A stretch of DNA of 64,000 bases from a virus. The notes under the pieces were generated by a model, which saw only the letters and a list, made by a program, of their open reading frames with translations, searched no databases and was not told where the DNA came from. Both the position numbers and the translations under genes were made by a program. Below, piece by piece: positions 36,794 to 61,437 of this stretch. Positions within the stretch are counted from its first letter, which is position 1. Each line of letters starts with the position of its first letter. The DNA is taken from IMG/VR virus record IMGVR_UViG_3300009159_000056, positions 19,992-83,991 of that record, one strand, 5' to 3'.

Positions 36794-37256
36794 ATTCGGC
36801 AAATCGATAATGAGCGATGATATGGTGGAGATTTCGGTTTCTCCACCATTTAACTCACAACCTCAACCAACACCAGTAGCAGCTGCCCCTACAACAGCTG
36901 TTCCTCCGCCACCGCCTCCTCCTCCACCACAACAAACAGCAAGTTATAGTAGTTCTTCCTCTGTAGAATTTACTCCTATGAGTCCGGAGAAGGCAGAAGA
37001 AAGCTGGGTTAAATCTATGTGGAGACCAGCAATGGGTTGGCTCTACATGCTTATCTGTTTGATGGATTTCGTTATCTTTCCTGCAATCGCGATGTTCTTA
37101 CCAGTTATGCTTAAAGGTATTGGTATCACGATGCAATATGCAGCTTGGCAAAGCTTAACATTATCTAATGGTGGATTAATTCACATGGCGTTTGGTGCCA
37201 TCCTTGGTGTTGCTGCTTACGGTAGAACCCAAGAGAAAGTAGCGAGCAAACAATAA
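36786..37256 (+). CDS. Putative holin (3-TM type) with Pro-rich N-terminus
   Basis: This 156-aa protein has about 70 Pro/Ser/Gln-rich residues first, including a nine-Pro run. These are followed by three hydrophobic stretches: 'WLYMLICLMDFVIFPAIAMFLPVML', 'MQYAAWQSLTL' as a weak one, and 'GGLIHMAFGAILGVAAYG'. 'WRP..GW.YM' and 'FGAILGVAAYGRTQEK' fit the 3-TM holin family seen in T4-like phages. It probably forms inner-membrane pores at lysis. It precedes a large peptidase-containing gene. Confidence 0.75.
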   Translation: MAKFGKSIMSDDMVEISVSPPFNSQPQPTPVAAAPTTAVPPPPPPPPPQQTASYSSSSSVEFTPMSPEKAEESWVKSMWRPAMGWLYMLICLMDFVIFPAIAMFLPVMLKGIGITMQYAAWQSLTLSNGGLIHMAFGAILGVAAYGRTQEKVASKQ

Positions 37257-40075
37257 TGGCTAAAAAAGGCGAACGTGTTGGTGCTATGGGGGATACTGTA
37301 TATTACAGAACCCCCGACGGTCAAATAATTGACGATGCAGGTAATGTCCTTAAAGGACCAATGGCCAAGATGCTTGCCGATGAATACGAATCAAAACAAC
37401 AAGAGAAAGCTAAAGCACAAGCGGAAGCTAAAGCTGCAGCTGAAGAAGATAAAAGAAAGAAAGCTGCTGAGAAATCAGCTGAGATAGCACGTAAGTCCGC
37501 AGAAAGACAAGCGGCTTCTGATGCGAAACGACAGCAAGCTGATGAAGAAAGAGCACAGAAGGCTGCTGAGAGAGAAGCTACACAAAAAACACAACAGCCA
37601 AAACAACCTGCTGCAGCACCAAGACAACCTTCTGCTCCTAGACAAGCAGCGCCAAAACAACCTGCAGCTGCTGCTCCGGAGCCTACTGATGGTCAAACAA
37701 TTAAAAATGCATTTAAAAATGCAGCTATTTCTGTAGGTAAATCTGCATTTAAATCTGCATTTCCAACATTATCAGGCGCTATTAATCGACCAGATCCAGT
37801 TCAAGGCAACAGTAGTGCAGAAGACATTAATGCAGGTGGCGCTAGACAAGCAATCAACAGAGTTGCTGATAGTGTAAACACAACTAATATGATGATGCAA
37901 ACTTCTATCGCACGTCAGGAAATGACTAATCAAATTCTTCAAGAGATATTGAAAGAAGTTCAGGTAATACGTCAATCTACCGCTAGTAGTGGTATTCTAG
38001 ATGCTCTTAGCAATTTAATACCAGGAGTTGGTGGAGGTGGTGTTAAAGGTAAACCTGCTCCTGGTAAAGTAACACCGAAAACTAGCATGCTTGGTAAAGC
38101 TGGTAATGTTATGCGTGGCGTTGCTGGTCGTGCAGGAGGAGCATTACTTGGTGGTGCATTCCAAGCATATGATGAGTATCAAGAATCTGGCGATGCTACA
38201 CGAGCAGCTTCCGCTGGCGCTGGTGGAGCCGTAGGTGGTGGATTGGGAGCATGGGGAGGAGCTGCAGCGGGTGGTGCTATCGGCGCTCTTGGTGGTCCTC
38301 TAGCGCCTGTTACTGTACCTCTTGGTATGTTAATTGGTGGTATTGCTGGTGGTATAGGTGGCAGTATGCTTGGTGGTAAAGCTGGTAAGGCTACATATGA
38401 TGCTGTAACTAAACCATCAGTACCTCCACCTCCAGCTGTAGGAGAACCAAAGGCTAGTATTTCTATTAAAGAAGCTCAAAATGCAGCAAAGCAAGAACCA
38501 GAACCAGAAGAAGAAAATCCATTAGATGCTATTGTTAATGTAAAAACATTAACATTTAATGCGGATAGTATTATTTTTAATGCTAAAAATCAACAAGCTG
38601 CTTCGCCTACAGCTGCACCAACATCGACGGCTACACCAGAAGTTAAAGCAGCTGGGGCAATTATAGCAGCTGGTTCTGGTAGCAGACCATCGCCTAGTTC
38701 GCAAGGAATTTCTGGTCCTACTCAGTCAGGATCTATTAGAGAAGCGTTAGCATCAGCACAAACACCAAGCCTATCTGGCTTCGGTACAAGTCAAATTAAT
38801 GCTGCTCGAGCCAATGCTGCAACATCGCCGTTTAGTGTTACTCCAGGAGCTATGAGTGCTGGCCCTCAATCTGCATCGTTAGGTGGCGCTGGAGGCGCTG
38901 GTGTTGGTGGTGCATCTGATGCATCAGCTGTTCAATTAGCTTCTACGATGGTTGGTAAAAATAGAGTACAATCATTAGATTATTTAAAAGCTGGTGGATT
39001 CAATAACACAGGAGAAGCATGGTGTGCTGAGTTTGTTAATTCTACATTGAAACAAACTGGTGGTACCGGTACTGGTGATAAAATTGCAAATAGTTTTCAA
39101 AAGTGGGGAACTTCTATAGATCCTACAAAGGTTCAAGCTGGTGATGTTGTCCTTCAAACAAAAGGTAATGGACCTGGTCAAGTTGGTGGACATGTCGGTA
39201 TAGCAACTGGTGTGTATCAGCATGGACAAATTGAAATGATTGCTGGTAACAGTGGTAAAGCTGGATCTGTTCGAAAATATTTCGTGCCTATTAATGGACA
39301 ATTGCAGGTGCGAAGAGGTTCTGGTGGTTCTGGTAATAATCCAAAGGTAGCAGATGCAACAAAAAATCCTTCTGCAGGAAATGCTGCTGGCGCTGCTACA
39401 GCAGGAGCTTCTGATCCTAAGAAAGCAGAAGCTGCAGCAACTCCTGGTGCAAAACAAACAGCAGCTGCTGGTGGATGGAGCGACGCTGCTAAAACATCTG
39501 CAGAAAAAACACCATCTGCTGCTGGTGATCCTACTTCAAGAAGATTTGACGCAGAAGGTAATAAACTCGATCCCGCTCCTGGTGGAGGAATAAAAAGATT
39601 CGATCCAACAACAGGTAAATTTGAAGAGCCTTCTAAACCAGATAACAGCGATCCTTATCTTAGAAAAATAAAGCCGAAGGGTATGGCGGAAGGTTTAACA
39701 GACGCTGCAATTAAAAGAGCTAAAGAATCAGCAGCACAAGCAGCTGAAATTGTTGGCCCTAAAACATTTAATGTAGGAACTGGTAGATGGGAAGCTTATG
39801 AATTAGCTAAACAGCCAAGCTATGAACCTGCAAAAATATCTGAACCAAAACCAATCACAAAAGGTGCAGAGTTAAATAGGGCTTCTACTCAAGATATAGT
39901 CGACGATAGATCAGCTAAGACAGGCATCACTGTCAATCAACAAAGTAGCGCTACGCCTCCAATTAATAACAGTAGTAAAGGAAATAGCGACAGTACTAGC
40001 GTTGGAATGGTAGAACCTGTTGATGCTAGAACAAGATTAAAAGATTTGTTTGGTATCAGCACTATGGCTGCATAA
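37256..40075 (+). CDS. Large tape-measure-like virion protein with CHAP/NlpC-type peptidase domain
   Basis: This 939-aa protein starts with an Ala/Lys/Glu helix (residues 50-115, coiled-coil-like). A very Gly/Ala-rich hydrophobic region follows (about 280-380). Residues about 560-685 hold an amidase-like domain: 'GEAWCAEFVNSTLK' with the candidate catalytic Cys, 'VQAGDVVLQT' and 'VGGHVGIATG' with the candidate His. Position after gp26 and the holin fits the tail hub/tape measure (gp29) slot. The peptidase may replace the missing gp5 lysozyme during injection. Both are inferences. Confidence 0.65.
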   Translation: MAKKGERVGAMGDTVYYRTPDGQIIDDAGNVLKGPMAKMLADEYESKQQEKAKAQAEAKAAAEEDKRKKAAEKSAEIARKSAERQAASDAKRQQADEERAQKAAEREATQKTQQPKQPAAAPRQPSAPRQAAPKQPAAAAPEPTDGQTIKNAFKNAAISVGKSAFKSAFPTLSGAINRPDPVQGNSSAEDINAGGARQAINRVADSVNTTNMMMQTSIARQEMTNQILQEILKEVQVIRQSTASSGILDALSNLIPGVGGGGVKGKPAPGKVTPKTSMLGKAGNVMRGVAGRAGGALLGGAFQAYDEYQESGDATRAASAGAGGAVGGGLGAWGGAAAGGAIGALGGPLAPVTVPLGMLIGGIAGGIGGSMLGGKAGKATYDAVTKPSVPPPPAVGEPKASISIKEAQNAAKQEPEPEEENPLDAIVNVKTLTFNADSIIFNAKNQQAASPTAAPTSTATPEVKAAGAIIAAGSGSRPSPSSQGISGPTQSGSIREALASAQTPSLSGFGTSQINAARANAATSPFSVTPGAMSAGPQSASLGGAGGAGVGGASDASAVQLASTMVGKNRVQSLDYLKAGGFNNTGEAWCAEFVNSTLKQTGGTGTGDKIANSFQKWGTSIDPTKVQAGDVVLQTKGNGPGQVGGHVGIATGVYQHGQIEMIAGNSGKAGSVRKYFVPINGQLQVRRGSGGSGNNPKVADATKNPSAGNAAGAATAGASDPKKAEAAATPGAKQTAAAGGWSDAAKTSAEKTPSAAGDPTSRRFDAEGNKLDPAPGGGIKRFDPTTGKFEEPSKPDNSDPYLRKIKPKGMAEGLTDAAIKRAKESAAQAAEIVGPKTFNVGTGRWEAYELAKQPSYEPAKISEPKPITKGAELNRASTQDIVDDRSAKTGITVNQQSSATPPINNSSKGNSDSTSVGMVEPVDARTRLKDLFGISTMAA

Positions 40076-40104: not shown

Positions 40105-41007
40105 TTATTCAGCAAGCTTCTTGAAGAATTCCAACGACTCATCGTCATCGTCTTCAGCAATATGCTTAGGTGCTTCCATCGCCTTCTGCTTGAAAACAGG
40201 CGTTTCCTCCCAAGGAATGTTTTCTGCAGTAGAGGCGCTCGAGCGAGCAGCTGCTGCTGACCCAGTAGCAAGAACCTTAACCAACTTACCCTTCAAGTCA
40301 TCGTAAGACTTATAGTTAGAAGGAGCAATAAACTCCTGAAGAGAATGAGCCTTCTTCCAAATTGCTTCCATCTCAGAGTCATCATCAAGCATAGGACCAG
40401 GCTTCGCGAACTCTGACTTATCATAATTGCGATAGCCTTCGACATTACGAATCTTAAGCTTGAAGTTAGCACCAGCCCAAAGATCGAATGGGTTCATAGC
40501 GTCTTCATCAACAAACTGAGGATTCATAGCCTCGTTGAGCTTATCGAAGATCTTCTTGCCATACTTGAACAAGAACACCTTGCCTTCGTTCTCAGGATTC
40601 TGCTGGTCGGTGACCACAAGAACATTAGAGATGAATGAAAGCTTACGCTTACGCTCAGAAGCGATCTTCTTATCTGACTCGATACCACTGTTCCAAAGTT
40701 CAGTGTTCTGCTCGCAAACAGGGCACTTATGACCAATGGTTGTGGGGCAGTTCTCAATCAACCAAGAGCCAGTCGGACCCTTGAAACCGTGATTGAATGA
40801 ACGGATGAACGGAACATCTTCATCACCAGGAGCAGGAAGGAAACGGATAACAGCGTAACCATTACCAGCCTTGTCGACATTAGGATACCAAAGACGGTCG
40901 TCCTTAGAATTGTCGAACTGATTGCCTGTGAGTTTCGAAAGTTCAGCGGTAAGCGATTCGAGGGACTTCTTACCTGAGTTAGCCTTAAGCTTTGCAAAAT
41001 CTACCAT
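40105..41007 (-). CDS. 32: Single-stranded DNA-binding protein gp32
   Basis: This 300-aa protein runs from the ATG at 41005-41007, which has GGAG upstream; a longer frame to 41079 lacks support. Recognisable are the N-terminal basic 'LKANSGKKSLESLTAEL', the core 'DRLWYPNVDKAGNGYAVIRFLP' and 'GPTGSWLIENCPTTIGHKCPVCEQN'. The last contains the zinc-binding His/Cys set. The C-terminus is acidic (ESLEFFKKLAE after DDDDE). gp32 coats ssDNA in replication and recombination. A perfect sigma70-type promoter lies just upstream. The gene group gp33-gp59-gp32 is typical of T4. Confidence 0.92.
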   Translation of the reverse strand: MVDFAKLKANSGKKSLESLTAELSKLTGNQFDNSKDDRLWYPNVDKAGNGYAVIRFLPAPGDEDVPFIRSFNHGFKGPTGSWLIENCPTTIGHKCPVCEQNTELWNSGIESDKKIASERKRKLSFISNVLVVTDQQNPENEGKVFLFKYGKKIFDKLNEAMNPQFVDEDAMNPFDLWAGANFKLKIRNVEGYRNYDKSEFAKPGPMLDDDSEMEAIWKKAHSLQEFIAPSNYKSYDDLKGKLVKVLATGSAAAARSSASTAENIPWEETPVFKQKAMEAPKHIAEDDDDESLEFFKKLAE

Positions 41008-41079
41008 TTGTATTCTCCATATTTGATGTATTGTTAATATTGATCGTATGTTTTGTTGGACTGTATAAGCGCCCAACAT

Positions 41080-41087: not shown

Positions 41088-41113
41088 ATAGCCCTATTGA
41101 CCGAATTTGTCAA
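41085..41113 (-). promoter_or_regulatory. Strong sigma70 promoter for gp32
   Basis: -35 TTGACA (41108-41113), 17-nt spacer, -10 TATAAT (41085-41090): a perfect match on the minus strand. The -35 lies inside the 3' end of the gp59 gene. Confidence 0.85.
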
Positions 41114-41675
41114 GAACAATCTTCTTCGCCTTCTCTTTATCGTACTCAAGAAATGGACGATACTTCATAATTTTGTTCAGGATTTCTTCGACAGTAGGGT
41201 CGTACACGAACTTCTTCGACCAGTAAGATGCACACCTAACTAGATCGACGAGGATCACCAATGTTTCGAGGCTGATTTCTTTTCGAATGAACAGCTTCAA
41301 TACATATGGATGGGTTTGGTTTTCAGCTTTGAAGTTAGAATCGAAATTCTCATTCAGCTTAGACAATTCTTCTTTGAACATATACATCAGCGACTGTTGA
41401 CGCTTGTTCCAATCCTTATATACCTCCTCTGCAGAAAGAGAAAAGGCAATTTCTTTTATCCAAATTTTCGGGTTTTCGACGAGATTAGATAAAATATAGT
41501 TTCGTGGGTCGGGGTGTTTTGCGACCTTCATAAAGTATAGCTTATCTTTTCTGACATCGAATGAGTCGAACGATAGGCGACTTTTGCCATTGTATTTGTG
41601 ATAATTGTATGATGGTTTGGTGAAGTGGTTCTTAAGAGCCACATACTCTTTGTAGCATTCGAAGGCTGACATCAT
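41094..41675 (-). CDS. 59: DNA helicase loader gp59
   Basis: This 193-aa all-helical protein (T4 gp59, 217 aa) has 'RRKD'-type early basic residues (FDVRKDKLYFMK), 'NYILSNLVENPKIWIKEI', 'YVLKLFIRKEISLETLVILVDLV' and 'KIMKYRPFLEYDKEKAKKIV'. These parallel T4 gp59 'LIFISNLVANQDAWIGDI', 'YIFKLLQSNIISFETFILLD' and 'AYRKILNIDSQKAKNV'. It loads gp41 helicase onto gp32-coated forks. Immediately upstream of gp32, as in T4. Confidence 0.85.
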   Translation of the reverse strand: MMSAFECYKEYVALKNHFTKPSYNYHKYNGKSRLSFDSFDVRKDKLYFMKVAKHPDPRNYILSNLVENPKIWIKEIAFSLSAEEVYKDWNKRQQSLMYMFKEELSKLNENFDSNFKAENQTHPYVLKLFIRKEISLETLVILVDLVRCASYWSKKFVYDPTVEEILNKIMKYRPFLEYDKEKAKKIVLDKFGQ

Positions 41676-43929: not shown

Positions 43930-44119
43930 TATACCCTTTGATCAATTTTATTCCAAATGTAATCATATCACTGGTCATCAGTGTACAAAAAACGATTCCT
44001 GCTAGCTCAAGGTAACTGGGATATTTAGCAAGGTAAATTACCCCATAAAACATAAATTGCGCCAGAACGACCAATAGGACGCCCACAGGGACATCCTTCA
44101 CAAACTTAGATTTTTCCAT
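43907..44119 (-). CDS. Small two-TM membrane protein
   Basis: This 70-aa protein has two hydrophobic stretches, 'VPVGVLLVVLAQFMFYGVIYLA' and 'LELAGIVFCTLMTSDMITFGIKLI', predicted to span the membrane. It overlaps the gp33 start by 23 nt, so the two are probably coupled. Function unknown. Confidence 0.65.
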   Translation of the reverse strand: MEKSKFVKDVPVGVLLVVLAQFMFYGVIYLAKYPSYLELAGIVFCTLMTSDMITFGIKLIKGYNDDSGEH

Positions 44120-44130
44120 AAAATTATCCG

Positions 44131-44310
44131 TCAGTTTTTGTATCTGGACTCAATTTCTTTGAGACGCTTTGCCAAATACTCCATAACAACTACAACGTTT
44201 TCGTCGATTTGATCAGGCGTTTCGAACTCAAGAACTTTCAATACATTTTGAAGCTCATCATGAAAGGCTGCTTTTTTTAAAGTGTCAACCGAATACTGAT
44301 ACGTGTTCAT
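44131..44310 (-). CDS. Small helical protein, 59 aa
   Basis: ATG at 44308-44310 preceded by AGGAG, ending in TGA at 44131-44133. The sequence (MNTYQYSVDTLKKAAFHDE..., ...VMEYLAKRLKEIESRYKN) is helical and charged. It sits in line with the gp33 group. No family recognised. Confidence 0.65.
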   Translation of the reverse strand: MNTYQYSVDTLKKAAFHDELQNVLKVLEFETPDQIDENVVVVMEYLAKRLKEIESRYKN

Positions 44311-44333
44311 TGAAGTACTCCTTGCTTAAATGA

Positions 44334-44363
44334 AAAATGGCTGGTGTTTTATCCAGCCATTTT
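44334..44363 (-). terminator. Bidirectional hairpin terminator
   Basis: An 11-bp stem AAAATGGCTGG/CCAGCCATTTT has an 8-nt loop. T-rich tracts follow on both strands, so it can end the outer-membrane gene (minus) and insulate the next operon. Confidence 0.85.
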
Positions 44364-44377
44364 GTTTTTTGCGGAGA

Positions 44378-44914
44378 TCAGAACTTGTAGTTCGCACCAA
44401 GAGTAAAGCGGTTATCCTCGCCCTTCATCTTTTGATCGATGGCGTCAGAATAACGGTAGCGAGCGTCAAGCTCGATATTCTTGGCAAAGTCATACTTAAC
44501 GCCGCCACCTACGTTGTAGATTGCACGATTCTTAAGAATGTTATTCCATGTGTACCCTGCACCAGCGAGACCATAGGCAGTGAAATCAGTGCCAGGAACC
44601 TTAAACTGTGGGAGAGCATTGACAGAAAATTCGTTAAGCTTTTCGTGCTTGGTGCCGACCTTATCCTTCTTGTATCCGAAATCATATGCAGCTTCTACTG
44701 CGAGATATGGAAGGACATTTGTACCAGCTGAAATACCGCCTGAATAGACCTGATGGTCAGCGCTATTTACGCCAACGTTAACACCAGCAAAATAATTTGT
44801 CTGAGTGAATGTTGGAGCGGGTGCAGCTGGAGTAGTCTTGCTAGGTAGATCTGAAGCGACAGCTGAAGTAGCTGCAACAACGAGAATAGCAAGAGTAGTG
44901 AATGTACGCTTCAT
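44378..44914 (-). CDS. Outer-membrane beta-barrel protein with signal peptide
   Basis: This 178-aa protein has a signal peptide of residues 1-20 (MKRTFTTLAILVVAATSAVAS). A Pro/Ala linker follows, then amphipathic strands of an 8-stranded barrel ('YFAGVNVGVNSA', 'AVEAAYDFGYKK', 'FTAYGLAGAGYTW', 'IYNVGGGVKYDF', 'IELDARYRYSDAID') ending in a terminal Phe (LGANYKF), the BAM signal. It closely resembles alphaproteobacterial Omp25/31-type proteins. Rare in phages; superinfection exclusion or surface change of the host is possible (inference). It is followed by a strong terminator. Confidence 0.85.
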   Translation of the reverse strand: MKRTFTTLAILVVAATSAVASDLPSKTTPAAPAPTFTQTNYFAGVNVGVNSADHQVYSGGISAGTNVLPYLAVEAAYDFGYKKDKVGTKHEKLNEFSVNALPQFKVPGTDFTAYGLAGAGYTWNNILKNRAIYNVGGGVKYDFAKNIELDARYRYSDAIDQKMKGEDNRFTLGANYKF

Positions 44915-44951
44915 ATTTTATTTCCTTTTCGTTTGTTAAACACACATAATA

Positions 44952-45028
44952 TGGCGGTTCCTGAAGGATTCGAACCCTCGACCCACGGAGTAGAAATCCG
45001 TTGCTCTATCCAGCTGAGCTAAGGAACC
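44952..45028 (-). tRNA. tRNA-Arg (anticodon TCT)
   Basis: A full cloverleaf on the minus strand: acceptor GGTTCCT/AGGAACC, T-arm with TTCGAAT loop, anticodon loop TTTCTAC between ACGGA and TCCGT, discriminator G and an encoded CCA. It reads AGA. It lies 11 nt after the tmRNA and is probably co-transcribed with it. Confidence 0.93.
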
Positions 45029-45038
45029 TTGATAAATT

Positions 45039-45066
45039 GAGGGGATTCTGTTTCCAAGCTCCCCTC
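45039..45066 (-). terminator. Hairpin at the tmRNA 3' end
   Basis: GAGGGGA (45066-45060) pairs with TCCCCTC (45045-45039) across a 14-nt loop, followed by AATTT. It may be the 3' hairpin of the coding piece or a weak terminator; tRNA-Arg follows. Confidence 0.4.
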
Positions 45067-45320
45067 CGGCTCATGTTAGGCAGCTAGTGCCAAACGAGAT
45101 GCATTGTTATCGTTTGCATTTACGAGTTTACTTAGTCTAATCGTAACTTTACTACAACCCATCGAGCCTATTTCGCCCCCATCAAAAGCACTACCCGACT
45201 TATATTCCCCTGCATACGTCATTTCTGGTGCAGCTAATGCGTTAGTGCTTGTGGTGGAGGCGTGGGGTACTGCCCCCCAGTCTGGATCGTCTATTTCGAA
45301 CGCCTCAACAACCAAGCAAT
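45039..45320 (-). ncRNA. ssrA: Circularly permuted two-piece tmRNA (ssrA), alphaproteobacterial type
   Basis: On the minus strand the acceptor piece comes first. It has a T-arm TGGGG/CCCCA (45279-45263), acceptor strand CGCCTCC (45262-45256) and A-CCA (45255-45252). A 71-nt intervening segment (45251-45181) has a perfect 7-bp hairpin AGCACTA/TAGTGCT. The coding piece starts GGGGGCG (45180-45174), pairing with CGCCTCC and giving the G3-U70 pair that alanyl-tRNA synthetase needs. A joining P2 helix TGGGTTGT/ACGATCCA (45161-45154 with 45290-45283) precedes the T-arm. The resume codon GCA (45117-45115) opens a tag ANDNNASRLALAA ending with TAA at 45076. tmRNA rescues stalled ribosomes; the permuted form is known from alphaproteobacteria. 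The T-loop (GGCAGTA) is atypical. Ends are estimated. Confidence 0.9.
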
Positions 45321-45321
45321 G

Positions 45322-45329
45322 TATTTATA
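45322..45329 (-). promoter_or_regulatory. T4-type late promoter (TATAAATA) at the tmRNA
   Basis: Exact consensus on the minus strand, overlapping the sigma70 -10 box of the tmRNA promoter. Early and late expression from one site is suggested. Confidence 0.55.
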
Positions 45330-45355
45330 ATAGCTGAAACCGTGGGAAAAGTCAA
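45327..45355 (-). promoter_or_regulatory. Sigma70 promoter for the tmRNA-tRNA-Arg unit
   Basis: -35 TTGACT (45350-45355), 17-nt spacer, -10 TATTAT (45327-45332). Predicted start near 45320, just before the acceptor piece. Confidence 0.75.
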
Positions 45356-45561
45356 GTGATTTTTGAAATATTATTTCTACCCATCGTAGTATTTACTCTT
45401 GCTCGAATTAATGCATTCTCCCAAGTCCAACATTCACCTGAATCATCCTGGAAGCATACCCACATCAGGTCGTGTTCAGGTCCATAATCAATAAGGAAGT
45501 GGGCTAACCCACGACCTTTCGGAGTCATTAATGGAATTGGTGGATCCAACCGAGTAATCAT
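45352..45561 (-). CDS. Small conserved phage protein, 69 aa
   Basis: Starts at the ATG that overlaps the stop of the upstream gene (ATGA); an upstream in-frame ATG at 45582 lacks a ribosome site. Sequence features 'TPKGRGLAHFLIDYGPEHDLMWVCFQDDSGECW' in two blocks and 'ENALIRARVNTTMGR' fit a recurrent small phage family ('TP.G.A..L.DYG.E....W'). Function unknown. Confidence 0.7.
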   Translation of the reverse strand: MITRLDPPIPLMTPKGRGLAHFLIDYGPEHDLMWVCFQDDSGECWTWENALIRARVNTTMGRNNISKIT

Positions 45562-45953
45562 TCGGTAACGATCCGCTTCCATTCTTGGTTAATCTTCAAC
45601 CAGAGGTGACCATCTTTACCAACAGACATAGCAACTCTGGTTTCTTCGTCAAAATTTTGATCGGCTTCTACTTCCATGCCCTTACCAATAGTCAGTTTAT
45701 TATTGGTAGGCCAATTGCCAATGGTGACATAGTTATCAACATATTCTTTGGGAATGCTCATAGAGAACTCATTCCACTGAGGATACTTTACTCGTGGACG
45801 AGGCGGTGGAGGCGGTGGCTTATGTGCAGCCAGAGTCATCAATGCTTTATCAGGAGCCATTGACACTGGTGGTGCCTTTGCCATTGCCTCCGCTGCCATC
45901 ACCATACCAATAGGAGCAGCGGGAAGAAAACTAAAAAATGCTCTACGATTCAT
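45558..45953 (-). CDS. Exported protein with Tat-like signal
   Basis: In this 131-aa protein residues 1-25 (MNRRAFFSFLPAAPIGMVMAAEAMA) have the twin-Arg and hydrophobic core of a Tat or Sec signal. A Pro-rich linker with six consecutive Pro follows, then a C-terminal domain (about 60-131) containing 'PTNNKLTIGKGMEVEADQNFDEETRVAMSVGKDGHLWLKI' in pieces. Periplasmic location is inferred. The first 16 residues are duplicated in the 26-aa frame at 46146-46226. Confidence 0.7.
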   Translation of the reverse strand: MNRRAFFSFLPAAPIGMVMAAEAMAKAPPVSMAPDKALMTLAAHKPPPPPPRPRVKYPQWNEFSMSIPKEYVDNYVTIGNWPTNNKLTIGKGMEVEADQNFDEETRVAMSVGKDGHLWLKINQEWKRIVTE

Positions 45954-45965
45954 ATCAACTCCTCT

Positions 45966-46142
45966 CTATTTTATCACACAACGAGTCTGGACGTTGGTGC
46001 TGGTCATCCAGCCCTTAACATCCTTAGCCATCTCTTGGACGACGATGGCCGCGACCTCACAAGCCTGCTGCCCTTTGTATTCCTGTTGGGAAACTGAAAC
46101 ACCATTATAGGCATTGATCACTACGATCAGGACATATAGCAT
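45966..46142 (-). CDS. Small secreted/membrane protein, 58 aa
   Basis: ATG at 46140-46142 has a strong AGGAGG upstream, provided by the end of the 26-aa frame. N-terminus MLYVLIVVINAYNGVSVS is hydrophobic, followed by a helical part with two Cys (ACEVAAIVVQEM..., VQTRCVIK). Possibly a periplasmic disulfide-containing peptide. Family unknown. Confidence 0.65.
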   Translation of the reverse strand: MLYVLIVVINAYNGVSVSQQEYKGQQACEVAAIVVQEMAKDVKGWMTSTNVQTRCVIK

Positions 46143-46145
46143 CAC

Positions 46146-46226
46146 TTAACCTCCTATAATCATCCCAAGCAGCATTATACCAATTGGTGCAGCTGGGAGG
46201 AAAGAGAAAAACGCTCTACGGTTCAT
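46146..46226 (-). CDS. 26-aa peptide repeating a Tat-like signal (duplicate remnant or mini-membrane protein)
   Basis: Translates MNRRAFFSFLPAAPIG then IMLLGMIIGG. The first 16 residues equal those of the exported protein at 45558-45953, while third-codon positions differ. It could be a truncated paralogue or a functional one-TM peptide. It is embedded in a tightly packed operon: its start overlaps the upstream stop, and its 3' end carries the ribosome site of the next gene. Confidence 0.5.
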   Translation of the reverse strand: MNRRAFFSFLPAAPIGIMLLGMIIGG

Positions 46227-46465
46227 GGATACGAATGCTCCTTGATGAAGGCATCAGCATCAGGACGGTACATATAGTACCGGAGAACGATTGCGATACC
46301 TTCAGCAGTTTCCCTATGCATCCAAAGATCCTCAACCTCAAAGTCGCGAAGGGGATCTTCCTTACACAACAGTCGAGCGATATCGTTTTGCTGCGAGATA
46401 TAATCTTGCTTCAACGTGTCGACAATGATCTTATCAACCATTGCAGTGTCAATTTCAAACTTCAT
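46223..46465 (-). CDS. Small conserved protein, 80 aa
   Basis: Start set at the third of three consecutive ATGs after GAGGAG. The frame to 46639 is open but lies inside the upstream gene. MKFEIDTAMVDKIIVDTLKQDY, then 'FEVEDLWMHRETAEGIAIVLRYYM', is helical and acidic and resembles small T4-like conserved proteins. Function unknown. Confidence 0.65.
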   Translation of the reverse strand: MKFEIDTAMVDKIIVDTLKQDYISQQNDIARLLCKEDPLRDFEVEDLWMHRETAEGIAIVLRYYMYRPDADAFIKEHSYP

Positions 46466-46664
46466 CATCATTCTCCTCGATTTCAGTTTCCCAATAGCGA
46501 CTATAGAAGTGGTCACCACATGCATCAATCTCAGCCTGAGGATACCCCTGCTCAACCAACCATTCAAGCACTCGACCCTTCGAAGCCTGAAGATCAATTG
46601 GCATAGGGAATCCATACTTCCACCCAGAAGGTGGATCAATCATCATTACTGTTTTCTTAGCCAT
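46455..46664 (-). CDS. Small conserved protein, 69 aa
   Basis: 'VMMIDPPSGWKYGFPMPID' is a striking Pro/Gly/aromatic block. It is followed by 'VLEWLVEQGYPQAEIDACGDHFYSRYWE' and an acidic end. The PPSGW.YGFP block appears in small phage proteins of unknown role. It overlaps its neighbours on both sides by a few nt. Confidence 0.65.
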   Translation of the reverse strand: MAKKTVMMIDPPSGWKYGFPMPIDLQASKGRVLEWLVEQGYPQAEIDACGDHFYSRYWETEIEENDDEV

Positions 46665-46872
46665 CAGTTAACCCCTTCACGATGTTTATTATCGTAACTT
46701 CGTCTTCGTATGAATCATTAAATCCAACTTCCCAAGCTTCCCAGAGCAAGTAGTCAGCTCTATCATTATATGGATTCTCAGGAAATATATCCAGCCTGAC
46801 ATCGCCAAATTTGATAGCGCTGTAACCATTGATATACGCTTCTCGTTCTGCCTGACTAGCATTGTATGTCAT
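46657..46872 (-). CDS. Small conserved protein, 71 aa
   Basis: Starts at ATG 46870-46872, overlapping the stop of the 376-aa gene (ATG-TGATG). Pattern 'EREAYINGYSAIKFG' and 'NPYNDRADYLLWEAWEVGFNDSY' is typical of short phage 'A..NGY.A...G..NPY......W..GF' proteins, with related host and phage copies. Function unknown. Confidence 0.7.
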   Translation of the reverse strand: MTYNASQAEREAYINGYSAIKFGDVRLDIFPENPYNDRADYLLWEAWEVGFNDSYEDEVTIINIVKGLTDG

Positions 46873-48002
46873 CACATCACCTTCAACAGCACAGTATTTT
46901 CGTTGATTCGAAGCTGAAGTGGTTTATCGGTCTTCAACTCTTCCATCAACTTTCTAAGGACTATTTTACCTGATTTTTGCAGTTTGTCAAGAACTATTTC
47001 AGCCTGACGACCTGTTCCCTTACTCAGGCTAGTCGATTCATCATAATTGATGATGCTTGTTCCCTTGACTTGAAGTCCACCACGATCGATAGCACGAAAC
47101 ACCGTGACGATCTTGTACTTGGTGTTGAACGTCCATAGCTCCTGTGCACCGATAATCTTCTCCGGATTGATCGAGGCAATCTTGTATTCGTTGTTCTCCT
47201 TCTGGTACTTGAGGTTCTTCAGCTTCTTGTCCATCGAAATAGTGCGAGGCTTCCGAGGTGCGCGAGTCTTCTTCGTCACATTACCGTAGCGAGAGGCGTC
47301 ATCGATCAGCTTGTTGAAGAACAAGATACGTTCCTTCAACTCCTTTCGGTTCATATAGCTGTATGCCTCCTTGAGTTGATCGTCCTTGCCTTCGTACGCC
47401 TGAATGAGCTCATCAAGCCAAGGAGCGTAATAATCGACTATAGCTTGACAGTAGGCAGCAGGAATCGCCTTCGCCTTCAGCCAATCGTAAAGGTTAAGCT
47501 CATTATTGTCAAGATCGAGTAGTTCTTCGATATCGCCGATAATTTCGCTCTGACGGTCCCTCATACGGTCCTGAATTGACCGTTTGGAGGCGGCTAGGGA
47601 GCCTTCTGACGTCTCTTCCTCGGCTCGGGCTACCCTGGCCAGAGCTTCTGCCAGTTTCTCCTCTAGGAAGCCTCCCTCGGACGGGACTTCAAAGCCACGG
47701 TCAAGCAGTCGGCAACGCCAAGCTACAGTCGTAGGAACCCAGCAATTGTCAAGCTTGGCAAGAAGCTTGACCTCAGCTTTACGGTTACGCTTGGTGAGGT
47801 AGTCAGTGATGTACTGACGTGCATCACCATTGTCGCACATTGCATTGTACCAATTCAGCGCCAGCCCATATTCGCCTGATGTCATAGCGCCAAGGAACTC
47901 TGGCTCGTCGCCCATATACTTACGGTTGACCAAGTACGATTCGCTACGTGAGATGCGATTCGTCTTAGGCTTCTTAGCTATCATTGCTGCGCGACGTGCC
48001 AT
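46872..48002 (-). CDS. Conserved 376-aa phage protein, unknown
   Basis: A charged, helical protein. It opens with a basic stretch (RRAAMIAKKPKTNRISRSESYL); a central acidic helix region (residues 120-170) and a Lys/Arg-rich linker (about 245-265: TKKTRAPRKPRTISMDKKLK) follow. The C-terminal beta-rich part ('YKIASINPEKI', 'KYKIVTVFRAIDRGGLQVKGTSI') may be a separate domain. GGAG precedes the ATG. Nucleic-acid binding is possible from charge alone. Conserved in relatives, as far as I recall, without known function. Confidence 0.65.
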   Translation of the reverse strand: MARRAAMIAKKPKTNRISRSESYLVNRKYMGDEPEFLGAMTSGEYGLALNWYNAMCDNGDARQYITDYLTKRNRKAEVKLLAKLDNCWVPTTVAWRCRLLDRGFEVPSEGGFLEEKLAEALARVARAEEETSEGSLAASKRSIQDRMRDRQSEIIGDIEELLDLDNNELNLYDWLKAKAIPAAYCQAIVDYYAPWLDELIQAYEGKDDQLKEAYSYMNRKELKERILFFNKLIDDASRYGNVTKKTRAPRKPRTISMDKKLKNLKYQKENNEYKIASINPEKIIGAQELWTFNTKYKIVTVFRAIDRGGLQVKGTSIINYDESTSLSKGTGRQAEIVLDKLQKSGKIVLRKLMEELKTDKPLQLRINENTVLLKVM

Positions 48003-55833: not shown

Positions 55834-56835
55834 TTATGTTCTGTAGATAAATCTATCTTCGTTTTCGTTCCGATTCTTAAGGTTGCCATCAGCCTTCTTG
55901 AGAACCAAAGAGTTCATCAAAGATGTCCATTCTACTTCTCTACGTTTCCAGTTGAAACGAATGTCAGCGTAAGACTTTACAAATCCTAGCTCTGTATCAA
56001 GATTATCTGTACGAACAGAATCAATAGCATCCGCTAGAACAGAGTAGAAACGACTAGCATGCATGCTAGGATCTTCATCAAAATTGTACATGCGAGTAAG
56101 ACCACCACTAGTGTCCCAGAGAGCGCCGAGATTACTATGCACACACAGAGTACGAGATGACATAGCTTCCATCAAACTGATGCAAGAAGATTCGGTCCAA
56201 ATTGACGGGTATGCATAAATATGAGCCTTGTCAAGAGCTTCGCGAATAACTTCGTTCTTCTGGTAACCATGATAGTTGATTTGCGGATGATTGATACAAC
56301 GATCAAACAGTGCCTTGTATTGGGCGTCACGATCTCCCCAACCATACATATTGAAGCTCGAATATACATCAAGAACGATATTCTTGTCTTCCTCTGCTAG
56401 TCTTTCGAATACAGGAACAAGAATTTCTAACCCACGATGAGGAGTAGTGTGATAGATAAGATTGACTTTCTCAAAAGGATCTGGCTTATCTTTAACTTCA
56501 AAAGGCTCGATAGCATTACACAAGGTAACACACTTCCAATAAGGAATGTTAAAAGCTTTTTGGAAACCAGTTTGCTGCCAATGAGAATTGAACACCAACA
56601 TGTCGAAATTCTTCCAGCCATTGTTCTTCAATGGTCCAATAGAATTAGGATCTTCGGGTAGGTCCTGATGCCAATAAATTTTAATAAGATCAGGATTCAA
56701 AGGCTCTTGAATGCGAGAAACGAAAATTTGAAACTGATCAGTCAGCTCCTTCGGGAGACGCTCGATCAGCTTGTATTTCATCAATTCACTACCACCCATC
56801 GCCTTGGCGCTGAGTTCATCTTTAGCTAACGGCAT
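55834..56835 (-). CDS. Glycosyltransferase, GT4-like
   Basis: This 333-aa protein has 'MPLAKDELSAKAMGGSELMKYKL' (GGSE typical of GT-B acceptor side), 'LIYHTTPHRGLEILVPVFERL', 'INYHGYQKNEVIREALDKAHIYAYPSIWTESSCISLMEAMSS' in parts. The last is the E-x7-E nucleotide-sugar region. Probably modifies DNA, virion or host surface glycans. It overlaps the epimerase gene by 14 nt, so they are co-expressed. Confidence 0.85.
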   Translation of the reverse strand: MPLAKDELSAKAMGGSELMKYKLIERLPKELTDQFQIFVSRIQEPLNPDLIKIYWHQDLPEDPNSIGPLKNNGWKNFDMLVFNSHWQQTGFQKAFNIPYWKCVTLCNAIEPFEVKDKPDPFEKVNLIYHTTPHRGLEILVPVFERLAEEDKNIVLDVYSSFNMYGWGDRDAQYKALFDRCINHPQINYHGYQKNEVIREALDKAHIYAYPSIWTESSCISLMEAMSSRTLCVHSNLGALWDTSGGLTRMYNFDEDPSMHASRFYSVLADAIDSVRTDNLDTELGFVKSYADIRFNWKRREVEWTSLMNSLVLKKADGNLKNRNENEDRFIYRT

Positions 56836-57676
56836 AGTTCTCTTTCCATTCTTTAATGTGATTAATTACGTCCTTGGTTGCTTTCCAACCAGGAACGTTA
56901 GGCAAACTCAATGTTGTGTGCAGTTCATATGGTCTTTTGTCAAGCTGATACTCGATAGAGTGGTCGAATGCATCGGCAATTTCCTGGATTGAATAGTTTT
57001 GACCAGTACCAATATGGAAAACTCTGTTCATATCATTCTTCTTCAGGATAAGTTCAAGAGCATCTATTGTATCATCGATATGAGTGAAATCACGGCGGCG
57101 ATTTGGTCCATACACGGGTAGAGGCACGTCTTCCTCAACCTTCTGCTTGAATTTACGAATGACTGTGGTGTACTCACCCAAATCCTTCTCTCTCATCGAA
57201 CCATAGACATTATAAAACTTTACAATAGAAAAGTCAATGCCAAAGTGCATGTTATACAAATATAAAATGTCATCACATACCTTCTTGGAAAAAGTGTATG
57301 GATTATTAAACTTGTCGGTAAATTCAGTCGTCGATGATGATGCATAATATAGCTTACCAGAGGGATTGGTCTCGCGCATGTACTCGAGAATAGCAATCGT
57401 ACTCTGGTAGTTGTTGAGCAATGTTTCTTGTGGGTAGTCGAACGACATAGAAATTCTAGCGTTGTTAGCTAGATGATAAATTACGTCATATATTTTGACT
57501 GATTCTTTACAAAAACTAACAACATCGGTGAGGTAGTAATTTACATCACCCTTTACCATCCATCTAACGTCGCCCGTGGAAAGATCATCAACAACATCAA
57601 CTGAATGATCCTGCATCAATCTTTCCACAAGAAAACTACCAATGAAACCTAGTCCACCTGTTACAAGGATACGCAT
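56822..57676 (-). CDS. NAD-dependent nucleotide-sugar epimerase/dehydratase (SDR)
   Basis: This 284-aa protein has a Rossmann motif 'MRILVTGGLGFIGSFLVERL', 'YASSSTTEF', and catalytic YxxxK in 'NPYTFSKKVCDD'. 'FYNVYGSMREK' and 'YGPNRRRDFTHIDDTIDALELIL' follow, as in UDP-glucose 4-epimerase-like enzymes. It makes or converts a nucleotide sugar, probably for the adjacent glycosyltransferase. Its substrate cannot be told from sequence alone. Confidence 0.88.
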   Translation of the reverse strand: MRILVTGGLGFIGSFLVERLMQDHSVDVVDDLSTGDVRWMVKGDVNYYLTDVVSFCKESVKIYDVIYHLANNARISMSFDYPQETLLNNYQSTIAILEYMRETNPSGKLYYASSSTTEFTDKFNNPYTFSKKVCDDILYLYNMHFGIDFSIVKFYNVYGSMREKDLGEYTTVIRKFKQKVEEDVPLPVYGPNRRRDFTHIDDTIDALELILKKNDMNRVFHIGTGQNYSIQEIADAFDHSIEYQLDKRPYELHTTLSLPNVPGWKATKDVINHIKEWKENYAVS

Positions 57677-58254
57677 CAGCTACGTTCTGCTTCCGTAGCC
57701 TGAGAATTAAGGTAAGCCATAATGCTTTCTGGACTAGAAATACCATAAGGATCATCGTTAGCTTCATCGCGATAACCTGGCTCTTCAAACCAAGCTTCGA
57801 TCAAACCATCATCGATGATAGCGGCATAACGCCAAGAACGCTTACCGAAGCCAAGGTTGTACTTGTTAACAAGCATCCCAAGACCCTGAGTAAATGATGC
57901 ATTACCGTCAGGGATAACTTTAACATTGAAGATGCTTTGACTGTTCGACCAAGCAGTCATAACAAAAGAATCGTTCACCGACATACAATAAATTTCATCA
58001 ATATCGTGAAGCTCTTGAAATTCATTGTACATCTGTTCGAACCCAGGAAGCTGAAAAATCGAACAGGTAGGAGTGAAAGCGCCAGGAACCGAGAAAAGGA
58101 TAACTCGCTTCCCAGCAAAATAATCAGCAGTGCTCATGTCCTGCCAACGATAAGGATTTGGCCCACCAACAGATTCATCACGAACACGTGTTCGAAAAGT
58201 TACATTAGGAACACGTCGACCGACATAACTAGCCATACCAATATAATTTACCAT
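57676..58254 (-). CDS. Peroxiredoxin (Prx5-like)
   Basis: In this 192-aa protein the active-site PGAFTPTCS holds the peroxidatic Cys64 in a P-x3-T-x2-C motif. 'LPGFEQMYNEFQELHDIDEIYCMSVNDSFVMTAW', 'VIPDGNASFTQGLGML' and 'GFGKRSWRYAAIIDDG' are Prx5 hallmarks. It reduces peroxides with thiols; a glutaredoxin is encoded nearby. Very unusual in phages; perhaps guards against host oxidative bursts (inference). Confidence 0.92.
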   Translation of the reverse strand: MVNYIGMASYVGRRVPNVTFRTRVRDESVGGPNPYRWQDMSTADYFAGKRVILFSVPGAFTPTCSIFQLPGFEQMYNEFQELHDIDEIYCMSVNDSFVMTAWSNSQSIFNVKVIPDGNASFTQGLGMLVNKYNLGFGKRSWRYAAIIDDGLIEAWFEEPGYRDEANDDPYGISSPESIMAYLNSQATEAERS

Positions 58255-58268
58255 AACAAATCTCCAAA

Positions 58269-58673
58269 TTATTCAGTAGTCGTTACTTCTGTAATCGTTT
58301 CTTCTGTGAATTCCATAGGAGGAGCTTGACGCTCGATAAATGCAGTATTATACTTTTGAAACTTAAATGCGCCAGTAGCAATTTCGATCACCTTCGAAGG
58401 ATCGAAAGGCTTGCAAGAGAAAATATCAAGATACATAGTGTCGTTCTCATCAACAAAATGAGCACAAATATTTGAGGTTTCAATAAGCTGAACGAGCGTA
58501 TACCCAGCCTTATCGCCCGAACCAAACTTAACAACCTGTGGTTCGCCATAGGCAACCATGTCAATTCCTTCTACCAATCTCTTGGCGAAGTCGGTAATAA
58601 CATTTGGATCGGTGATATCCGAGTGGCTGCACCCAGAACAATCCAAAATAAGATGATAACCCCAATGCGTCAT
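58269..58673 (-). CDS. speD: S-adenosylmethionine decarboxylase (phage SpeD type)
   Basis: In this 134-aa protein 'MTHWGYHLILDCSGC' is the typical start. 'VQLIETSNICAHF' holds the pyruvoyl-forming Ser67 and His72, and 'MYLDIFSCKPFD' holds Cys87. Spacing agrees with bacterial AdoMetDC (Ser63, His68, Cys83 in Thermotoga), and the ETSN form resembles cyanophage SpeD. It makes decarboxylated AdoMet for spermidine, which can neutralise packaged DNA. Confidence 0.88.
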   Translation of the reverse strand: MTHWGYHLILDCSGCSHSDITDPNVITDFAKRLVEGIDMVAYGEPQVVKFGSGDKAGYTLVQLIETSNICAHFVDENDTMYLDIFSCKPFDPSKVIEIATGAFKFQKYNTAFIERQAPPMEFTEETITEVTTTE

Positions 58674-58684
58674 GTTAGTCTCCT

Positions 58685-58993
58685 TTAGCCGCCGATAGGC
58701 TCTGGCTTGTCATAGTTAATTTTGTTGATGAATTTGAGCTTTTGCTCTTCGGTCCAGCTCTTTAGGTAGTCATTGTCTTCGTCGAACATCCTTAGATATT
58801 CGTCTTTATTTATTTCTCTGTAAGAGAGGATGACGGGGCTTGGAGTAAGATGCTCTTGCGAAAACTCGTTAAATTCTGTATTACCATATTCACAAATTAC
58901 TTCATCAAGAGCATGTTCAGTATCATCTTCTACCTCAACGCAATAGCGAATGCGAAACTGTGAAAGGCAGTCAACCATAACAAGTTTTTTCAT
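58685..58993 (-). CDS. Conserved unknown protein, 102 aa
   Basis: 'MVDCLSQFRIRYCVEVEDDTEHALDEVICEYGNTEFNEFSQEHL' in parts, then 'ISYREINKDEYLRMFDEDNDYLKSWTEEQKLKFIN'. It resembles a small family found near speD or glutaredoxin in T4-like phages of marine and rhizobial hosts. Overlaps its neighbour by 1 nt. Function unknown. Confidence 0.65.
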   Translation of the reverse strand: MKKLVMVDCLSQFRIRYCVEVEDDTEHALDEVICEYGNTEFNEFSQEHLTPSPVILSYREINKDEYLRMFDEDNDYLKSWTEEQKLKFINKINYDKPEPIGG

Positions 58994-59265
58994 TATTGAT
59001 AGCTCTGGTGCATAGTTTCTACATATTCTACTGAATCGATACGGAATGATCGCCAGCCGCCATTATCCATATCCCAAACAGCGAGCGTGTTTAGGTTTTC
59101 TGGCTTCTTGTGTTCAGCTAGAAGATATCCCTTATCTGTTCCAGGAGGCAGATGCTTAGACATTAATGTGCAACGCATCTCACGACGATCGCCGTTGACC
59201 TTAGTAAACGTCACCTTAATGACTTGTTCCTGAAGATCCTTCAGTAGTACATCACGTTCATACAT
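58993..59265 (-). CDS. WYL_2 / SH3-like small protein
   Basis: This 90-aa protein has 'DLQEQVIKVTFTKVNGDRREMRCTLMSKHLP' (in parts) and 'LAVWDMDNGGWRSFRIDSVEYVE', matching a beta-barrel family frequent in cyanophage-type T4-like genomes ('VWD..N.GWRSFR'). Probably regulatory or nucleic-acid associated. Family identification is from memory. Confidence 0.75.
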   Translation of the reverse strand: MYERDVLLKDLQEQVIKVTFTKVNGDRREMRCTLMSKHLPPGTDKGYLLAEHKKPENLNTLAVWDMDNGGWRSFRIDSVEYVETMHQSYQ

Positions 59266-59275
59266 AATTTATTCC

Positions 59276-59533
59276 TCACTCATTAAGAAGTTTAGCTGTG
59301 GAAGTTGTCTGTTCATTAATGATGGTTTGGAGCTGTGAGAACCCACCAATGTTAAAACCATCTACAACAACGACGGGGAATGTGGCAGCGCTCGGGAACA
59401 TCTCTAAGAGAGTTTCTCGAGTAAAATCGCTATCGAGCTTGAGCTCTGTGTATGAAATATTTTTCGAAGCCAAAAGAACCTTGGCTTGACTGCAGTAAGA
59501 GCAGTTTTGCTTTGTGTAAAGAGTAACCTTCAT
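59276..59533 (-). CDS. nrdC: Glutaredoxin
   Basis: 85 aa from ATG 59531-59533, overlapping the stop of the preceding 35-aa gene (ATGA). Active site CSYC (residues 11-14) in 'VTLYTKQNCSYCSQAKVLL'. 'AATFPVVVVDGFNIGGFSQLQ' holds the conserved cis-Pro and the GG motif. It reduces ribonucleotide reductase or the phage peroxiredoxin. A longer in-frame start at 59551 has no ribosome site. Confidence 0.9.
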   Translation of the reverse strand: MKVTLYTKQNCSYCSQAKVLLASKNISYTELKLDSDFTRETLLEMFPSAATFPVVVVDGFNIGGFSQLQTIINEQTTSTAKLLNE

Positions 59534-59637
59534 CCTAGTACCATCTCCCAATAAAGAGTAACATCTGCTTCGTTGAGAGGATCGAAATCAAGTTTCATCA
59601 TATCCTGCATAACGAGTAGTTCGAGTTCACTGTACAT
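59530..59637 (-). CDS. 35-aa peptide, first gene of the glutaredoxin operon
   Basis: ATG at 59635-59637 with GAGGTG upstream. MYSELELLVMQDMMKLDFDP then 'TLYWEMVLG' is acidic. Located just downstream of a perfect promoter; its stop overlaps the glutaredoxin ATG. Function unknown; may act as a leader. Confidence 0.6.
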   Translation of the reverse strand: MYSELELLVMQDMMKLDFDPLNEADVTLYWEMVLG

Positions 59638-59658
59638 TTTCACCTCAATCATGTTATA

Positions 59659-59687
59659 ATTATACCTTACATTTGCTCGTTTGTCAA
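59659..59687 (-). promoter_or_regulatory. Sigma70 promoter for the glutaredoxin operon
   Basis: -35 TTGACA (59682-59687), 17-nt spacer, -10 TATAAT (59659-59664): a perfect match. Confidence 0.85.
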
Positions 59688-59696
59688 TATTTATCT

Positions 59697-59846
59697 TTAC
59701 CAGTGACGTATCACGCCAGCCACGATAAAGATATTTGTTATGATGTAGCATAGTATGATTAATGTTCTAATTACAGCAATTTTATCCGCTTCTCTATCGT
59801 CTCTACCGTATTTATCACCAAGCGCCTTAGCCCATAATCTCCACAT
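59697..59846 (-). CDS. 49-aa membrane peptide (MWRLWAKALG family)
   Basis: ATG at 59844-59846, TAA at 59697-59699. 'MWRLWAKALGDKYGRDDREADKIAVIRTLIILCYIITNIFIVAG' in parts. It is a charged N-terminus followed by one TM helix. This layout recurs in T4-like cyanophage genomes. Function unknown. Immediately downstream of the endolysin-like gene. Confidence 0.7.
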   Translation of the reverse strand: MWRLWAKALGDKYGRDDREADKIAVIRTLIILCYIITNIFIVAGVIRHW

Positions 59847-59856
59847 CAATCACCCA

Positions 59857-60645: not shown

Positions 60646-60673
60646 TTGTTTTCCTTTAGTTATTTCCATTTTC

Positions 60674-60681
60674 TATTTATA
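60674..60681 (-). promoter_or_regulatory. T4-type late promoter (TATAAATA) for the endolysin-like gene
   Basis: Exact consensus, 29 nt upstream of the signal-peptide start codon and 7 nt after the tRNA-Met gene. Confidence 0.75.
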
Positions 60682-60687
60682 GAAGAA

Positions 60688-60763
60688 TGGTGTGCCGGGA
60701 GGGACTCGAACCCCCAACCAGACCGTTATGAGCGGTCGGCTCTAACCATTGAGCTACCAGCAC
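60688..60763 (-). tRNA. tRNA with anticodon CAT (Met, or Ile2 if lysidine-modified)
   Basis: Acceptor GTGCTGG/CCGGCAC, anticodon loop CTCATAA between GACCG and CGGTC, T-loop TTCGAGT, encoded A-CCA. Confidence 0.9.
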
Positions 60764-60769
60764 TTATTA

Positions 60770-60860
60770 TGGTAGGGATGCCAGGTTTCGATCCTGGTCT
60801 AGAACAGTCATCTACTGCTAAAGAGTTTATAAGTCTCTCTCGTGTCCAACACCCACCCCC
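60770..60860 (-). tRNA. Degenerate tRNA-like gene with long variable arm
   Basis: Acceptor GGGGGTG/CATCCCT (two G-U pairs), encoded A-CCA, T-stem CCAGG/CCTGG with loop ATCGAAA, variable stem CAGT/ACTG. The anticodon arm has loop CTTATAA closed by an A-A mismatch (anticodon would be TAT). The D-arm is odd (GTGT-TGG-ACAC) and position 8 is G instead of U. It may be a decayed class II tRNA or a decoy. Confidence 0.55.
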
Positions 60861-60865
60861 ATTAA

Positions 60866-61339: not shown

Positions 61340-61355
61340 ATTTCACCTGTTTTAT

Positions 61356-61429: not shown

Positions 61430-61437
61430 AATCTATA

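Follow-up and report, generated by a model that had tools for sequence, protein, structure and literature searches.

The tmRNA genes of mycobacteriophages and of Bacillus phage G are one-piece genes and are not known to be permuted. Like the gene described here, they are encoded by the phages themselves (PMC4131195). Two-piece tmRNAs of phages have also been published: a 2022 report describes one from Melnitz, a T4-like phage, and puts the number of two-piece phage tmRNAs in a phage database at 53, of which 50 are aquatic (PMC9004378), and another study lists 79 phage tmRNAs (PMC11915505). Phage tmRNAs have been described before, but they are little studied. We analyzed a stretch of 64,000 nucleotides, bases 19992-83991 of an 83,991-bp virus record (hereafter the window), which carries a gene of this already published kind. 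The view of a preliminary description of the locus, that no well-described case is known in this phage group, does not hold given Melnitz and the 53 published two-piece genes.

The Melnitz ssrA gene (MZ577097; PMC9004378, accessible part) and the window gene are both alpha-type two-piece tmRNA genes of T4-like phages, and the Melnitz order SsrA-gp33-gp59-...-gp32 is also the order in the window. The Melnitz gene is followed by a glutamine riboswitch, an arrangement that the same source calls common rather than defining, whereas the region 44100-46900 of the window gave no glutamine riboswitch match at E <= 1. Melnitz, unlike the window, has no tRNA-Arg directly behind its tmRNA; its tag, ANDNYVPVDYALAA, differs from the window tag, and only ~25% of the window gene aligns with the Melnitz gene in blastn, at 82% identity. 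With the alphaproteobacterial tmRNAs of Rfam family RF01849, the window gene shares the permuted order, the G3-U70 pair, the GGCRGUA T-loop, and a tag of the form ANDN...LAA. The phage gene differs from them in lacking the 5' hairpin, in its late promoter box, in a longer and exchangeable intervening segment (IVS), and in the tRNA-Arg directly behind it. We note that an alpha-type tmRNA is no proof of an alphaproteobacterial host, because Melnitz infects OM43 (PMC9004378, accessible part).

Permuted tmRNAs above the Rfam cut-off were also seen, unannotated in the deposits, in the phages Mesorhizobium Cp1R7A-A1 (L333), Rhodobacter RcXuper (L335), Ruegeria V10 (L336), Sinorhizobium Phosso (L337), and Rhodobacter RcSimone-Hastad (L338). 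In Ruegeria phage vB_RpoS-V10, a GOLLD RNA (RF02032, 151.4 bits; L336:2209-2642) precedes the unannotated tmRNA at a short distance.

Identity and layout of the gene

The window gene is arranged in permuted order, with the acceptor piece first, then the intervening segment, and then the coding piece (Table 1). A search with the Rfam alpha_tmRNA model (RF01849), one of the checks proposed in the preliminary description, matches window positions 45359-45036 on the minus strand with 113.1 bits (E 4.4e-30), above the gathering cut-off of 50 and far above chance. The permuted tmRNA model RF04321 gives 104.9 bits (E 2.1e-19, cut-off 47), and ARAGORN independently calls the gene permuted (tmRNA*), with an agreeing tag, ANDNNASRLALAA, and an adjoining tRNA-Arg(UCU). 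The earlier identification as a permuted two-piece tmRNA is thereby confirmed, and the acceptor stem, G3-U70, A-CCA end, T-arm, P2, hairpin in the 71-nt segment, and tag with its TAA stop that it listed are all found on the minus strand at the positions it gave. Its claim of an own ClpXP-type tag beside a tRNA-Arg also holds. The tag frame has a GCN resume codon, a stop, and a hydrophobic AA end. Chance similarity is excluded as the source of the match by the covariance model and by covariation, and no second tmRNA was found in the record.

In the RF01849 alignment, the 5' hairpin and the outer P2 extension are deleted or mispaired, so that both are reduced or absent in the phage gene, and the mature RNA is therefore predicted to differ from the bacterial consensus. 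Both elements are lineage-specific details of the alpha consensus, and RF04321 does not require them. The transcript probably runs on into the tRNA-Arg, whose 5' processing probably sets the 3' end of the tmRNA.

Table 1. Features of the tmRNA locus in window coordinates.
Feature	Position	Strand	Basis or remark
sigma70-type -35 hexamer TTGACT	45350-45355	-	pattern scan, 10/12 matches; 17 nt from -10
sigma70-type -10 hexamer TATTAT	45327-45332	-	sequence, pattern scan
T4-type late promoter box TATAAATA	45322-45329	-	sequence; overlaps -10
tmRNA acceptor piece, ~65 nt, A-CCA end	45252-45316	-	RF01849/RF04321 alignments, sequence; 5' end inferred from promoter
P2-like helix, acceptor-piece strand ACGATCCA	45283-45290	-	sequence; 7/8 pairs with double changes
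T-arm TGGGG-GGCAGTA-CCCCA (5-bp stem, 7-nt loop GGCAGTA)	45263-45279	-	covariance models, sequence; 100% of cells paired
Acceptor stem 3' strand CGCCTCC, carries U70	45256-45262	-	sequence, covariation
Discriminator A and encoded CCA	45252-45255	-	sequence
Intervening segment (IVS), 71 nt	45181-45251	-	removal by tRNA processing expected; exchangeable cassette
IVS-closing 8-bp helix AAGCACTA/TAGTGCTT	45250-45243/45193-45186	-	within the 71-nt IVS
tmRNA coding piece (GGGGGCG strand, D-loop region, P2 strand, tag frame, 3' pseudoknot)	45036-45180	-	Rfam models, sequence
Acceptor stem 5' strand GGGGGCG	45180-45174	-	7 bp with CGCCTCC, including G3-U70
P2-like helix, coding-piece strand TGGGTTGT	45154-45161	-	sequence, covariation; 8 bp with ACGATCCA
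Tag frame GCAAACGATAACAATGCATCTCGTTTGGCACTAGCTGCCTAA, ANDNNASRLALAA and stop TAA	45076-45117	-	ARAGORN, sequence
H-type pseudoknot 3' of tag, GAGC/GCTT and GAGGGG/CCCCTC, loop with GGAAACAGAA	45039-45072	-	covariation, helices 5 and 6
tRNA-Arg(UCU)	44952-45028	-	ARAGORN, covariance models; starts 46-47 nt past tag stop
Outer-membrane beta-barrel protein, 178 aa, PF13505	44378-44914	-	E 2.5e-18; between tRNA-Arg and gp33
gp33-like late-transcription coactivator, PF16805	43705-43929	-	domain match
gp59-like helicase loader	41094-41675	-	protein comparison
gp32-like single-strand DNA binding protein	40105-41079	-	protein comparison

Conservation and selection in the T4-like clade

T4-like proteins surround the tmRNA, in agreement with the earlier claim that it is phage-borne. 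The neighbors in the window include a gp32-like single-strand DNA binding protein, whose closest counterparts are in T4-like marine phages (~50% identity), a gp59-like helicase loader, proteins of the baseplate wedge and hub, of the tail tube, and of head closure, recombination exonucleases, and PhoH. Phage genes on both sides exclude that the contig is contaminated with bacterial DNA. Several other features of the window were observed: the beta-barrel protein has a signal-peptide-like start; positions 55834-62557 (minus strand) hold a cluster resembling glycosyltransferase, nucleotide-sugar epimerase, peroxiredoxin, and UDP-glucose dehydrogenase genes amid phage genes; and a tail-lysozyme family domain (phrog_1259) occurs on two separate proteins, at 37256-40075 (plus strand) and 59857-60669 (minus strand).

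Among the 80 loci with the closest gp32 proteins, 54 contain the tRNA-Arg, and ARAGORN finds a tmRNA in 32 of these 54; covariance models find one in 12 of 15 further tRNA-Arg loci tested. By either method, 44 of the 47 checked tRNA-Arg loci of gp32 relatives carry a tmRNA, and each of the 12 large records tested has one. Throughout this T4-like clade the tmRNA adjoins tRNA-Arg(UCU) near gp33-gp59-gp32, and the gap between tag stop and tRNA-Arg is 46 nt here, ~45-60 nt in many relatives, and 87-880 nt in others. In a tree of core sequences, which are short, the window tmRNA nests among phage relatives and away from the sampled host genes, which is moderate evidence. The tree disfavors a recent capture from a host, with the reservation that the sequences are short and host sampling is incomplete. 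The tmRNA is probably a long-term resident of this clade of T4-like phages.

On an alignment of 29 phage tmRNA genes, taken from the IMG/VR gp32 relatives and a motif scan, one named structure was tested (acceptor stem, T-arm, P2, IVS-closing helix, and 3' pseudoknot). This structure pairs in 95.4% of cells, compared with 78.8% in column shuffles and 40-54% when slid; the sliding control is biased in its favor, as the window sequence itself served to define the structure, but the double changes are independent of this. Covariation is strong, with changes on both sides in 26 of 38 pairs and G3-U70 invariant in all 29 sequences. G3-U70 is retained where the acceptor stem is swapped, as in L159 (GGGCCAG/CTGGTCC) and L166 (GGGCCGG/CCGGTCC). 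The pairing and the double changes show that the structure of the phage tmRNA is under selection. A weaker point is the single-sequence fold energy, which is just moderately better than that of shuffles (z -2.0).

An AA end is present on 68 of 70 distinct viral tags. The window tag was earlier termed host-type, which is right for its ANDN...LAA form, an alphaproteobacterial one; the exact tag, however, was found only in phages among the sequences compared. Modules of tag and 3' pseudoknot also seem to be exchanged (L149 and L001, the window; L064 and L125; L484 and L001), with the same or similar tags on divergent cores and differing tags on one core.

Promoter and proposed role in infection

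The preliminary description placed the feature at 45039-45320. The gene does lie there, and the functional unit is slightly wider, with a promoter reaching 45355. This composite promoter and the exchange of the IVS (see below) are additions to that description.

The late box motif NATAAATA precedes 73 of 96 distinct viral tmRNA genes, as against 0 of 157 alphaproteobacterial ssrA genes, which rejects it as a general host ssrA feature; low-GC bacterial ssrA genes also lack it (0/11). The chance expectation at that place is 2.7 of the 96 genes, with a maximum of 8 in 200 order-1 Markov samples. A TTGAC-like -35 hexamer accompanies the box in 62 of the 73 genes. Across the window the total number of NATAAATA motifs is as expected (28 versus 29), but 10 lie 5-60 nt upstream of genes, where 1.1 are expected; plain AT-richness is rejected on this ground, as the total is unremarkable and the placement is not. 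The late box is absent from the permuted tmRNAs of RcXuper, V10, Cp1R7A-A1, and RcSimone-Hastad, phages not recognized as T4-like. It is a property of phage two-piece tmRNAs for which we found no description.

T4-like cyanophages have NATAAATA as their late-promoter motif, and for RB49-type and cyanophage T4-likes an overlap of early and late promoters has been proposed as a 'middle' mode of expression (PMC2984593). The likeness to the window lies in a sigma70 promoter that overlaps NATAAATA; the difference is that those promoters stand before protein genes, whereas that of the window drives a tmRNA. The Melnitz tmRNA is preceded by an exact TTGACA-N17-TATAAATA, and its authors placed it behind an early promoter, with early expression (PMC9004378, accessible part). 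A gp55 gene was found in 6 of 8 relatives tested, including a genome with the same tag as the window (L058). The window promoter seems capable of remaining active once RNA polymerase is under phage control, and it is from these sequence elements that we infer the timing of tmRNA expression.

We consider it very probable that the gene encodes a functional, phage-owned two-piece tmRNA of alphaproteobacterial type, which would act with host SmpB, AlaRS, and proteases in ribosome rescue during infection. None of 13 records (the 12 large ones and the window's own) yielded an SmpB gene, and gp55 was not found in the window's own; as this record is an 84-kb fragment, both absences from it are weak. 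In the proposed mechanism, the host sigma70 promoter and the overlapping phage late box would drive a single transcript with the acceptor piece, intervening segment, coding piece, and tRNA-Arg(UCU) in this order. Host RNase P and 3'-end enzymes would excise the IVS and split off the tRNA, and the two pieces would pair through P2 and the acceptor stem. The G3-U70 acceptor would be charged with alanine by host AlaRS, and host SmpB would deliver the RNA to ribosomes that have stalled on broken mRNAs, where the nascent chain would gain ANDNNASRLALAA and be directed to ClpXP or a comparable protease. The phage would probably benefit in that ribosomes keep recycling through the middle and late phases, as host ssrA transcription and intact host mRNA fail. 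The roles put forward in the preliminary description, ribosome recycling or diversion of host degradation, are likewise hypothetical.

The same rescue could have a defensive reason, with a replacement tmRNA countering RNase-type defenses (toxins, anticodon nucleases) that destroy host ssrA or mRNA. The tandem with tRNA-Arg(UCU), often also with tRNA-Ile or tRNA-Met, fits this reason, as does a gene annotated as a tRNA splicing ligase ~1.3 kb from the unannotated tmRNA of a Mesorhizobium phage. However, no RNA ligase or kinase was recognized among the subset of window proteins scanned, and we regard a defensive reason as unlikely. Far less probable still is that the phage RNA acts as a decoy, titrating SmpB or AlaRS away from host trans-translation and thereby blocking it, a role proposed for the tag-less tmRNA of mycobacteriophage DS6A. 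The phage RNA would indeed compete for host SmpB, and an inhibitory tmRNA-like phage RNA is on record (PMC11915505, PMC4131195). The tRNA-like part alone would suffice for a decoy, whereas divergent phages also conserve the tag reading frame with its resume codon, its stop, and its AA end, together with P2 and the 3' pseudoknot, and it is this retention of tag and pseudoknot that makes a decoy improbable. That a host ssrA was acquired by chance and is now decaying is barely credible: tmRNA genes are integration sites, with fragments seen in prophages (PMC9004378, accessible part), and some viral tags are odd, such as AKDHITLPSGSKF in L079, but the covariation strongly disfavors decay, the conservation of the tag end and of synteny and the promoter specific to phages also stand against it, and no integrase was found among the window proteins scanned. 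For ribosome rescue by a phage-owned tmRNA, the position that this T4-like clade keeps for it, beside late-transcription and replication genes, together with its promoter, predicts that rescue would be under phage control late in infection.

The intervening segment and its cargo in related phages

Segments and cores of phage tmRNAs do not follow each other. The segment of L067 is 96% identical to that of L144, with cores 80% identical, and L011 and L014 share a segment at 99% identity with cores at only 69%. Cores below 80% identity combined with segments above 80% occur in 33 phage pairs, whereas none occurs among 1251 comparable bacterial pairs. Another 14 viral contigs carry the window's own segment, which lies inside a tmRNA in every one inspected, and the genes that host it have several different cores, tags, and acceptor stems (e.g., GGGGACG/CGTCTCC and GGGGTCG/CGACTCC). 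The cores of the window (L001) and L067 scored 100% identical around unrelated segments; fast segment divergence was rejected as proof of exchange, because loops in host genes are free to diverge as well (508 of 2655 close pairs), and the only evidence retained is one loop common to divergent cores. On this evidence, phages exchange the intervening segment as a cassette separately from the tmRNA core, a pattern that bacteria did not show.

Among 46 distinct viral segments of at least 90 nt, 19 contain a Shine-Dalgarno (SD)-like motif followed by a frame of at least 28 codons, compared with 1.5 SD-led frames in shuffled segments (maximum 6 of 200). The family of MKNPLVKKISVAMFKLYILWSICADVILISGIIALLLGYGKISF and its relatives is a conserved, SD-led, probable membrane microprotein of 38-44 aa (MKNPLV..WSICAD..), present in L010, L021, L034, L048, L053, L081, L090, L100, and L117. 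Most pairs of this family have a dN far smaller than dS (e.g., 0.07 vs 0.99), and the frame terminates at the last bases of the segment. A simple pattern places a permuted tmRNA around 62 of 76 loci of this family, and several others lie just upstream of a tmRNA. The L093 segment holds a DUF2061-like frame slightly below the Pfam cut-off. The L407 segment is ~570 nt long (L407:1742-2314), lies between CACCTCC-ACCA and the matching GGGGGTG, and encodes an HNH endonuclease or endonuclease VII-like protein (phrog_3322, E 7e-20), which also occurs in two further contigs (L494 and L495); its gene has its own TATAAATA box and could drive homing of the segment. In the isolate Melnitz an SD-led ATG frame, MFKWLSKTRLVVITRDYFRERN..., also begins within the segment (L334:2934-3386, MZ577097), which argues against IVS frames being an assembly artifact; the accessible part of PMC9004378 names neither this frame nor the TATAAATA box. 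The window's own cassette has no separate gene, and its sole frame runs on into the tag frame, apparently by chance. A 79-aa frame through the window tmRNA (45315-45076) is probably due to chance, as stops break it in L125, which has nearly the same IVS.

The cargo slot is a property of phage two-piece tmRNAs for which we found no description: no prior report of IVS cargo genes was found in the literature searched, which took in few subscription papers. The nearest precedent is provided by two permuted tmRNAs whose intervening sequences contain a tRNA-Ala gene or a repeat element (PMC11915505, accessible part). Cargo in the IVS is common to both; those cases are single, and microproteins, cassette exchange, and an endonuclease gene are not reported in the accessible part of that source. 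Usually ignored as a spacer, the IVS resembles an interchangeable slot in which microgenes are hidden; annotation pipelines miss them because they are located inside an RNA gene. We tentatively suggest, as a possibility just short of even, that the IVS of T4-like permuted tmRNAs is a mobile cargo site, whose excised inserts include exchanged small RNAs, membrane microproteins, and homing-type HNH genes, with turnover by endonucleases or recombination between the conserved flanks. The slot could tolerate, express, and exchange cargo because any insert would be cut out by tRNA processing. The 71-nt segment of the window would then belong to these cassettes, as a small RNA set free with each tmRNA.

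Other frames were also observed in segments. A family of 35-36 aa has its stop codon within the tmRNA coding piece (L015, L017, L072, and L073), and another family comprises 32-33 aa (L046 and L143). Single longer frames occur in L150 (97 aa) and in L019 (73 aa, with hydrophobic stretches).
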